DNA of 59,630 nt from Flavobacteriales bacterium (GTDB lineage Bacteria > Bacteroidota > Bacteroidia > Flavobacteriales > UBA1820): contig JAGAUI010000011.1 in assembly GCA_017620815.1 (NCBI GenBank), positions 1 through 59,630 on the forward strand, given 5' to 3'. The translations under genes and the position numbers were made by a program. Below the pieces are notes generated by a model. The model saw nothing but the letters and a program-made list of their open reading frames with translations, had not been told where the DNA came from and ran no database searches. Below, piece by piece: positions 22,743 through 39,880 of this stretch (position 1 is its first letter; each line of letters opens with the position of its first letter).

Positions 22743-23060
22743 TTCATTTGATGTTAAAATTAATTATTCCTTGTCGTGGACTTAATCCACATACAAGACA
22801 GGAAGTAGGACTTATGGTAGCACATCACAATGGAAAAGAAGCAATCATATAATCAACGATGAGAAAAATCACTACATACTCACCATCCTTTGTCTGTAGC
22901 ACACAGAAATCCCACCATCCTATCCTGCATGACTTTGAACATCAAGGGGGAAATAAATAATGCCACTATGTGTCATCTTAAAAATGGCAATGTAATTGCT
23001 TAAACCATTACCAGGAAAAGCCACACTATGACACGCCCATTCTCCGCAGGCTGCAAAATC
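22743..23060 (-). promoter_or_regulatory. Long structured leader between the aptamer and btuB
   Basis: This 318-nt segment has no convincing open frame. On the transcribed strand GUGUCAU (23028-23034) can pair with AUGACAC (22970-22976), enclosing UGGUAAUG (23006-23013) paired with CAUUGCCA (22985-22992) through a U-G wobble that works only on this strand. A second hairpin, CTTGT..GTGGA/TCCAC..ACAAG (22770-22797), ends 28 nt before the btuB ATG. It is probably the riboswitch expression platform or an added regulatory element. Confidence 0.5.
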
Positions 23061-23071
23061 ATTTATAACTC

Positions 23072-23262
23072 AAAGGCAGGTCTTCTGACTCGCTCCATTT
23101 TTGATGCCTTCCCATGTGGAACAAAGAATCATCACACAGTGACATTTTATCAAAAATCTTTTTCCAGCCCTTACAGACTAGAGGAGCATACAGCAGCGGG
23201 AACTGTTGCCGAATCTCACGGCATTCCCTTTTCATCTCCACTATGATGGAGAACCTCGGTTA
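23072..23262 (-). promoter_or_regulatory. Cobalamin riboswitch
   Basis: On the minus strand the conserved blocks appear in the right order: AGGTTCTCC, then GGGAATGCCGTGAGATTCGG and ACAGTTCCCGCTGCTGTA (the core and its loop), TGTCACTGTG (the GCCACTG-like block), GGGAAGGC, and finally AGTCAGAAGACCTGCC, the 3' B12-box. High cobalamin should fold it and reduce btuB-btuG expression. No intrinsic terminator follows, so control is probably at translation. Confidence 0.93.
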
Positions 23263-23270
23263 TCTCACCA

Positions 23271-23278
23271 CAAATGTA
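23271..23278 (-). promoter_or_regulatory. -7 promoter element (TACATTTG) of the btuB-btuG operon
   Basis: The minus strand reads TACATTTG with a possible TTG 21 bp upstream (23300-23302). Transcription would start just before the riboswitch. Confidence 0.78.
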
Positions 23279-23370: not shown

Positions 23371-23408
23371 AAAAAATCTCACCCTCCTTTTTTTAAGAGA
23401 GGATGAGA
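23371..23408 (-). terminator. Terminator of gcvH
   Basis: On the minus strand AGTCTCATCCTCT-type sequence pairs with GGAGGGTGAGA (11 bp including two G-U pairs) and is followed by six T. It lies about 33 bp after the gcvH stop. Confidence 0.75.
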
Positions 23409-38876: not shown

Positions 38877-38908
38877 AAAAAAGCCCCGCCTTTCAGGCGG
38901 GGCTTTTT
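38877..38908. terminator. Bidirectional terminator between glgB and rpsU
   Basis: A perfect stem GCCCCGCCT/AGGCGGGGC with a TTC loop is flanked by A and T runs. It ends both convergent transcripts. Confidence 0.94.
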
Positions 38909-38932: not shown

Positions 38933-39127
38933 CTATTCGTTTTCTTTTTCACGAAGAGACTGTACATATACAGCTTTAGCGTGTTCTTTACGTTTAATTA
39001 CAGATGGTTTGTTGAACTGCTGACGTGCACGCAATTGTTTCATCACACCTGTTTTGTCAAATTTACGTTTGAAACGTTTAAGAGCTCTTTCTATAGCCTC
39101 TCCTTCTTTTACTGGTATTATAAGCAT
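38933..39127 (-). CDS. rpsU: 30S ribosomal protein bS21
   Basis: The small basic protein sits near the 3' end of 16S rRNA. It has 64 residues with the standard pattern MLIIPVKEGEAIERALKRFKRKFDKTGVMKQLRAR. In Bacteroidota ribosomes bS21, with bS6 and bS18, helps hold the anti-Shine-Dalgarno tail in a pocket, which explains why SD sequences are little used. The gene has a leader of about 180 nt with a perfect SD-like sequence far upstream of the start. It may also receive read-through from the long operon upstream, because no terminator follows the nitroreductase gene. Confidence 0.96.
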   Translation of the reverse strand: MLIIPVKEGEAIERALKRFKRKFDKTGVMKQLRARQQFNKPSVIKRKEHAKAVYVQSLREKENE

Positions 39128-39308
39128 TGTTTTGTGTTTTAATGGTTTTTAAATCTTGATTTTCATTTATTAAAAGGCTCATTATGACAGTCTCACACAC
39201 ACTGTGTGAATCATTTCTGTCCATAAAAATTCATAATTCCTTAAAACAAACGACCTCCTTTAAAAACCTATTTATCTAGTTATTACCTGTGTTTATTCTT
39301 CTTTTTTA
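39128..39308 (-). promoter_or_regulatory. Leader of rpsU with a remote perfect Shine-Dalgarno sequence and a hairpin
   Basis: On the minus strand AAAGGAGGT occurs at 39253-39261, about 125 nt before the rpsU ATG. A hairpin with TCACACA/TGTGTGA and GACAG/CTGTC (39186-39221) lies between it and the ATG. A minimal open frame of 7 codons starts about 20 nt after the SD (MNFYGQK). Nothing SD-like is adjacent to the rpsU start itself. Confidence 0.6.
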
Positions 39309-39315
39309 CGAGTGG

Positions 39316-39323
39316 CAAAGATA
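39316..39323 (-). promoter_or_regulatory. -7 promoter element (TATCTTTG) for rpsU
   Basis: The minus strand reads TATCTTTG between the nitroreductase stop (39359) and rpsU, giving a leader of about 180 nt. Confidence 0.7.
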
Positions 39324-39358: not shown

Positions 39359-39880
39359 TTAAAATTTATCTCTGTGGATTTTATCGGTTACGTATTTATC
39401 TCGAGGGTTGTACTCTTTGGCAGGATAGCCCACAGGTATCACACATAGAGATACTACGCCTTCTGGAAGGCAGCATACGTCTTTTACCACCTGCATACGT
39501 TCAGGGTATGGATATGTAGCTGTCCATACTGCTCCTAGCCCTAGTGCTTCGGCGGCGAGCAGGATATTTTCTGTAACAGCACTGCAATCCACATACCAGT
39601 AATCACATTTTTCTTCTACTGCACACACTACAATAGCAGCCTTTGCATCGGCAAGCATTTTGGCATAGGGCAAACCCTCTCCCATAGCATCCAGCATAGC
39701 TCTATCCTTGACCAATACAAGCTCCCAAGGCTGGACATTCTTTCCCGAAGGTGCAGCCATACCACAACGAAGCAGTACTTCTAGTTTTTCGTCTTCTACT
39801 TCGGCAGGGGAATACTTGCGTACACTCTTACGAGACAGAATGTTTTTAATGACTGGGTGTTCCAGATAATTGTTTTCCAT
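39359..39880 (-). CDS. Nitroreductase family flavoprotein
   Basis: FMN-dependent NAD(P)H oxidoreductase of 173 residues, the short form of the family. RKSVRKYSPAEV (about 14-25) and AAPSGKNVQPWELVLV bind the FMN phosphate and the ribityl chain. LGLGAVWTATYP and the C-terminal VIPVGYPAKE complete the fold. Its natural substrate is unknown. It is the last gene of the 11-gene unit, 14 bp after the HhH gene. Confidence 0.9.
   Translation of the reverse strand: MENNYLEHPVIKNILSRKSVRKYSPAEVEDEKLEVLLRCGMAAPSGKNVQPWELVLVKDRAMLDAMGEGLPYAKMLADAKAAIVVCAVEEKCDYWYVDCSAVTENILLAAEALGLGAVWTATYPYPERMQVVKDVCCLPEGVVSLCVIPVGYPAKEYNPRDKYVTDKIHRDKF

Follow-up and report, generated by a model that had tools for sequence, protein, structure and literature searches.

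A conserved Shine-Dalgarno sequence more than 120 nucleotides upstream of rpsU in a genus of Flavobacteriales

The gene for ribosomal protein bS21 (rpsU) in one genus of Flavobacteriales has its only strong Shine-Dalgarno (SD) sequence far upstream of the start codon, at the foot of a likely helix that is common to the leaders of the genus. This arrangement suggests that ribosomes lacking bS21 may control rpsU in this lineage, and may do so from a distance. The analysis started from a stretch of 59,630 nt (the window; contig JAGAUI010000011.1), which belongs to a genome of 1.73 Mb in 42 contigs (G000). Four genomes are available for its family, all of one genus; they are MAG-type assemblies and represent about three independent lineages, as two are near-identical in the leader. 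The initial annotation had thought of Bacteroidales, which is probably wrong, since one genus member shares its exact leader with a MAG that was deposited as Flavobacteriales bacterium (L005). The main features of the locus are the following.

38933-39127, minus strand: rpsU, encoding a 64-aa bS21 with Tyr54 present (ORF; Pfam PF01165 match, E 9.7e-18)
38877-38903, minus strand: intrinsic terminator-like hairpin 3' of rpsU (read from the sequence)
39253-39261, minus strand: remote SD sequence AAAGGAGGT (sequence; kept in 4/4 genus members; -13.2 kcal/mol with the canonical anti-SD, ASD)
39316-39323, minus strand: Bacteroidota-type -7 element TATCTTTG (TAnnTTTG; motif at -196 from the ATG)

The Pfam match bears out the initial naming of the gene as bS21, and the terminator-like hairpin behind it is consistent with a monocistronic transcript. 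rpsU begins 231 nt past the stop of an upstream ORF on the same minus strand (39359-39880), which we take to be nitroreductase-like from sequence likeness. The motif TAnnTTTG, presumably the Bacteroidota -7 box, occurs only once within the 230 nt before the rpsU ATG. This single element points to a transcript that probably starts near -183, with the SD about 35-50 nt from its 5' end. Counterparts of the element lie at -178 to -194 in the three other genus members, 40-54 nt separate element and SD in all four leaders, and across the genus transcription would start about 170-185 nt before the ATG. A TTG begins 22 nt before the -7 box in L003, a spacing that we assume to be close to that of Bacteroidota promoters; the spacing is less typical in the other genus leaders. 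Tyr54, a residue of the bS21 pocket, is retained in all four members, and rpsR has no visible SD in the three genus genomes where it was found (four searched), which makes rpsU the natural place for feedback. A scan of viral contigs also returned an IMG/VR contig (L246) encoding a bS21 61% identical to that of the window, either as a phage gene or as bacterial carry-over.

The initial annotation had described a perfect SD about 125 nt before the rpsU start, fully complementary to the 16S 3' tail. Both statements hold: the sequence ends 125 nt 5' of the ATG and pairs with the ASD over 9 bp at -13.2 kcal/mol in all four genus members (RNAduplex, canonical ASD assumed). No 16S 3' tail was found in any of the four genus assemblies, and the anti-SD was taken as canonical, with CCUCCUUU as the expected 3' tail. 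Close to the ATG, the best pairing to the ASD reaches only -0.8 to -1.3 kcal/mol, and no SD adjoins the rpsU ATG in any of the four.

SD sequences are otherwise almost absent from the window, as had been remarked: AGGAG or GGAGG is found close to the start in just 2 of the 44 window ORFs that reach 100 aa, versus 0 of 44 in a mock window, while weaker SD 4-mers near these starts number 6 versus 6. The 8-mer AAAGGAGG by itself is not unusual (2 in the window versus 1.85 expected). Its second copy (23383-23390, minus strand) makes up an arm of a hairpin that resembles a terminator and lies upstream of a cobalamin riboswitch (23058-23273). The 9-mer AAAGGAGGT occurs 21 times on both strands of the genome, mostly within ORFs and several times in one repeat protein gene, a rate that predicts about 0.001 occurrences per leader. 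It is thus the position of the remote SD and its presence at the orthologous place upstream of rpsU in 4/4 genus members, not the rarity of the 8-mer, that set it above chance; the sequence is not there by chance. Two other genes, named by their translations, carry an SD at the usual place. A RelA/SpoT-like gene has a strong SD at normal distance in both G000 (AAAGGAGGTAAGATTATG; L198, contig C7) and G001 (AAAGGAGGTAGATAATG; L220, contig C97), which is unusual for an SD-poor group, and an ftsZ-like gene of G000 (L206, contig C10) has the near SD AAAAGGAGGTAGATATG at its start.

The first G of GGAGG lies at -131, -132, -124 and -143 in the four genus leaders (L001-L004, L001 being that of the window). 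These leaders are otherwise strongly diverged, and bS21 identity to the window drops to 86% in L004. In a four-way MAFFT alignment the longest invariant run is TAAAGGAGGT, and AAAGGAGGT falls within the longest string common to the leaders L001 and L003 as well as to L001 and L004. The comparison of rpsU leaders proposed in the initial annotation thus finds the SD kept throughout the genus. L004 alone has a TTG, 3 nt downstream of GGAGG, whose reading frame continues into that of rpsU and might extend the protein at its N terminus.

For comparison beyond the genus, 148 rpsU leaders were kept, four from the genus and 144 others, mostly of Flavobacteriales. Six duplicate loci were dropped by name, as were identical 200-nt upstream regions (5 by subtraction from 161 loci) and L060 and L147 (too short, or without a start codon). 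The 144 form a nonrandom set: most are best protein matches, others are among the best rows of a further search, and 40 regions were picked by hand across genera, with a few genera taken more than once. A -7 element was seen in 139 of the 144; its median distance to the ATG is 43 nt, versus 178-196 nt in the genus, and it lies more than 100 nt before the ATG in one of the 139 and at least 150 nt before it in none. A distal SD within the leader (more than 30 nt upstream of the ATG) was found in 0 of these 139, the test requiring a -7 element and so covering 139 of the 144 leaders. AGGAGG or GGAGGT stands within 25 nt of the ATG in 93 of the 144, a count slightly inflated by L126-L129, which came from a near-SD pattern, and one in which species with an altered anti-SD are scored as having no near SD. 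Most SD-bearing rpsU genes of the order have their SD at about -14. Because the 139 other leaders are short and none has a distal SD, the genus differs in two coupled ways: its leader is about four times longer and its SD lies far upstream.

Pattern scans extended this comparison. A distal-SD pattern, which demands Val6 in bS21 and an exact AAGGAGG, matched 8 of 395 genomes of the order, at rpsU only in the four genus members and in the other four elsewhere, at loci without bS21. Across the class it matched 4 of 296 genomes, at rpsU only in the genome of the window. A near-SD control pattern matched just 6 of 296, five at bS21 genes and one at a locus without bS21 (L125); the pattern scans are therefore low in sensitivity, and we rely on the leaders that were read directly. 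A literature search by title and start of abstract, in a collection with subscription journals mostly outside it, turned up no description of a remote SD at rpsU.

Next in bS21 similarity come two Ichthyobacteriaceae MAGs (L006, L007), whose rpsU leaders of roughly 80 nt have an apparent hairpin and no SD; these leaders are possibly an intermediate state. GGAGG at -175 and -184 in these two loci was considered as a distal SD and rejected, as it lies upstream of the predicted promoters (-90 and -97) and hence outside the leader. Another genome of the order (G013, family f11) has the 16S tail GGAACACCTCATTT with the altered anti-SD core CCTCA (L170), and its rpsU leader (L140) has neither a usual SD nor TGAGGT within 90 nt.

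Folding of the window leader predicts two helices around the SD, P2 directly after it and P1 just before it, which in the window comprise the following segments.

39245-39253, minus strand: P2 helix, 5' arm UCGUUUGUU, directly after GGAGG (fold; shuffle test p 0.007)
39163-39171, minus strand: P2 helix, 3' arm AAUAAAUGA (fold; shuffle test)
39239-39242, minus strand: P2 inner extension, 5' arm AAGG (fold)
39174-39177, minus strand: P2 inner extension, 3' arm CCUU (fold)
39259-39268, minus strand: candidate P1 helix, 5' arm GGUUUUUAAA, overlapping the AAA of the SD (fold; significant only in L001/L002)
39144-39153, minus strand: candidate P1 helix, 3' arm UUUAAAAACC (fold; shuffle test)
39193-39209, minus strand: local hairpin UCACACA-GUG-UGUGUGA within the P2 loop (sequence; fold; counterpart only in L002)
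39211-39234, minus strand: mini-ORF ATG..TGA, 7 codons, MNFYGQK (sequence; judged not conserved)

In all four genus leaders, the bases straight after GGAGG are predicted to pair across about 60 nt with a downstream segment. When the 16 nt after GGAGG were paired with the rest of the leader and compared with dinucleotide shuffles (1000 each), P2 reached p 0.007, 0.019, 0.029 and 0.004 in L001-L004, values that carry no correction for having chosen the 16-nt arm once the first folds had been seen. Scanned along its length, every one of the four leaders pairs best in a window that begins 0-6 nt from the first G of GGAGG. For each P2 5' arm, the leader of its own species is the best or nearly the best partner, the arm of L003 giving -9.5 with its own leader versus -9.7 with that of L004. 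The loop between the P2 arms measures 59, 60, 58 and 65 nt, and 35, 35, 33 and 40 nt lie between P2 and the AUG. The stretch from before the SD to before the start folds with z-scores of -3.0, -3.5, -2.55 and -0.64 (L001-L004), unremarkable in L004, and folding of a longer piece of the window leader is likewise unremarkable (z -0.57). The AUG region is mostly unpaired in the predicted folds.

The reading of covariation in P2 depends on gap placement. Aligned without gaps, three pairs are changed on both sides (U-A/G-C, G-U/U-A, U-A/C-G); with the one-base gap that MAFFT prefers, there are fewer double changes and a paired insertion instead. RNAalifold did not recover P2 on the MAFFT alignment of the four genus leaders. 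A P2 covariance model trained on L001/L002 matched L003 and L004, both at the expected coordinates, with 30.3 bits (E 0.00035) in L003 and without significance in L004 (E 1.5). One set of pair counts was discarded, as 8 of its 12 aligned rows were chance matches. An RNA model from the two near-identical leaders (R1) found only those two among 196 genomes and missed G002 and G003, and therefore says little on absence elsewhere. Taken on these computations, P2 is a likely helix. P1 is a possible one, with p 0.012 and 0.015 in L001/L002 and 0.325 and 0.185 in L003/L004.

The initial annotation had placed a strong hairpin and a 7-codon mini-ORF between SD and ATG. Both are present in the window, and neither is conserved across the genus: the hairpin is common only to L001/L002, the structure that is conserved by prediction being the longer-range P2, and the peptide is not shared beyond L001/L002 (MNFYGQK in the window, MNFYGQKNVTR in L002, MIFTK in L003, no ATG counterpart in L004). 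Of the two forms of feedback that had been proposed, a stand-by site fits the leaders best, while a leader-peptide version finds no support.

The reading that we favour, while granting it slightly less than an even chance, is that the remote SD, delivered by structure, recruits 30S subunits lacking bS21 to a standby position, as a variant of the rpsU feedback of Flavobacterium. In McNutt et al. (PMC9976891), bS21, bS18 and bS6 are described as hiding the anti-SD in Bacteroidota ribosomes, and F. johnsoniae ribosomes without bS21 favour the SD-bearing rpsU mRNA and initiate faster on it. E. coli 30S subunits can use standby sites upstream of structure and then slide (PMC3936740). In the genus studied here, a transcript from the predicted start would carry one strong SD in its 5' part. 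With about 86-98 nt after GGAGG folded away by P2, the SD would come to lie at the stem base, and the 33-40 nt left between it and the AUG would be A-rich and mostly unpaired. In most ribosomes bS21/bS18/bS6 would mask the anti-SD, and these would start on the A-rich region beside the AUG without SD pairing. A 30S subunit short of bS21, with its anti-SD free, would instead base-pair to the remote SD, pause there on standby and then move on to the nearby AUG in the mostly open start region, so that shortage of bS21 would lead to more bS21 synthesis. A standby step is favoured because the distance left after P2 is too long for an SD to position the AUG in the P site in the ordinary way. In a stronger form, which seems to us rather doubtful, the leader RNA senses ribosome composition remotely: its single SD, more than 120 nt upstream and at the base of a conserved helix, would recruit exclusively 30S subunits lacking bS21 and hand them to the start codon.

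The closest known system is the autoregulation of F. johnsoniae rpsU, which, as described by McNutt et al. (PMC9976891), shares with the present case the gene, probably the order, a strong ASD complement, Tyr54 of bS21 and an SD-poor genome. There, however, the SD lies in the initiation region (about -14) of a native leader of 25 nt, whereas here it is about 130 nt away in a leader of about 170-185 nt with a likely conserved helix. The pairing threshold of that study is -13 kcal/mol, which the -13.2 of the genus barely passes, as calculated with another program (RNAduplex) and an assumed ASD. Its survey, according to the same text, searched the initiation region, with -25 to -40 as mock window; none of the four genus members has an SD in that region, and a scan so confined is blind to a remote SD. 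Structured standby sites resemble the present leader in offering the 30S subunit an upstream, single-stranded waiting place beside a hairpin. Those described (PMC3936740), however, were designed synthetically for E. coli and have a separate site for 16S pairing close to the start, while here the only SD is the upstream one.

The rival that survives best is a split ribosome-binding site of the kind known from phage T4 genes 25 and 38, in which folding would bring the SD within working reach of the AUG, so that it places the start codon directly, with no standby. As here, SD and AUG are separated by structure that shortens the distance, in the T4 genes from 22 to 5 and from 27 to 11 nt and, as described (PMC3014915), with no link to ribosome composition. 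The 33-40 nt remaining after P2 nevertheless exceed this working range of 5-11 nt. P1 could shorten the path further in L001/L002 but is not significant in L003/L004, and the linker is predicted to be largely unpaired, which makes this explanation unlikely.

We consider it decidedly unlikely that the sequence works like a STAB-SD, with a 30S subunit at the remote SD shielding the mRNA from decay and, as only subunits without bS21 would bind, with bS21 shortage stabilising the message. The SD does sit in a long leader with no start codon at the usual distance (only TTG codons within about 4 nt after GGAGG), and strong leader SDs stabilise Bacillus mRNA even without an initiation codon (PMC3997798). 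The SD here, in contrast, would lie about 35-50 nt from the predicted 5' end and not at it. None of the four genus genomes has a match to the RNase J family TIGR00649, RNase J being the exonuclease that underlies STAB-SD stabilisation.

A cis element for a ribosomal protein or another factor, in which the SD-like motif is bound by a protein or serves the structure and does not pair with rRNA, is similarly improbable. A long structured leader before a ribosomal protein gene is typical of ribosomal protein autoregulation. The conserved block, however, is a 9-nt ASD complement plus the P2 5' arm, and no Rfam family reached its gathering score within 39128-39323, a relaxed search giving weak matches mostly to the terminator.

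Control by a leader peptide, with the SD driving a short upstream ORF, is very improbable: an ATG does follow GGAGG after 19-20 nt in three of the four leaders and the TTG frame of L004 runs into rpsU, but no peptide is common to the genus, L004 has no such ATG, the SD-ATG spacing is too long and the P2 5' arm lies between the two. Equally remote is a relic, an old SD pushed from the start by an insertion and followed by drift, which from the usual place at about -14 would be the simplest history, but AAAGGAGGT and P2 persist while the remaining leader diverges.

Specialised ribosomes are clearly exemplified by the F. johnsoniae work, whose survey took it for granted that an SD has to lie within the initiation region in order to work. 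The same SD at the same gene, about 115 nt further upstream, amounts to a natural experiment on whether the SD serves to place the start or only to capture subunits without bS21. Should feedback persist with the SD so remote, capturing subunits and placing the start codon would be functions that can be separated, and whole leaders would have to be rescanned in genomes so far scored as without the circuit. Remote sensing of ribosome composition by the leader, if true, would mean that this lineage has separated the selection of specialised ribosomes from the placement of the start codon.
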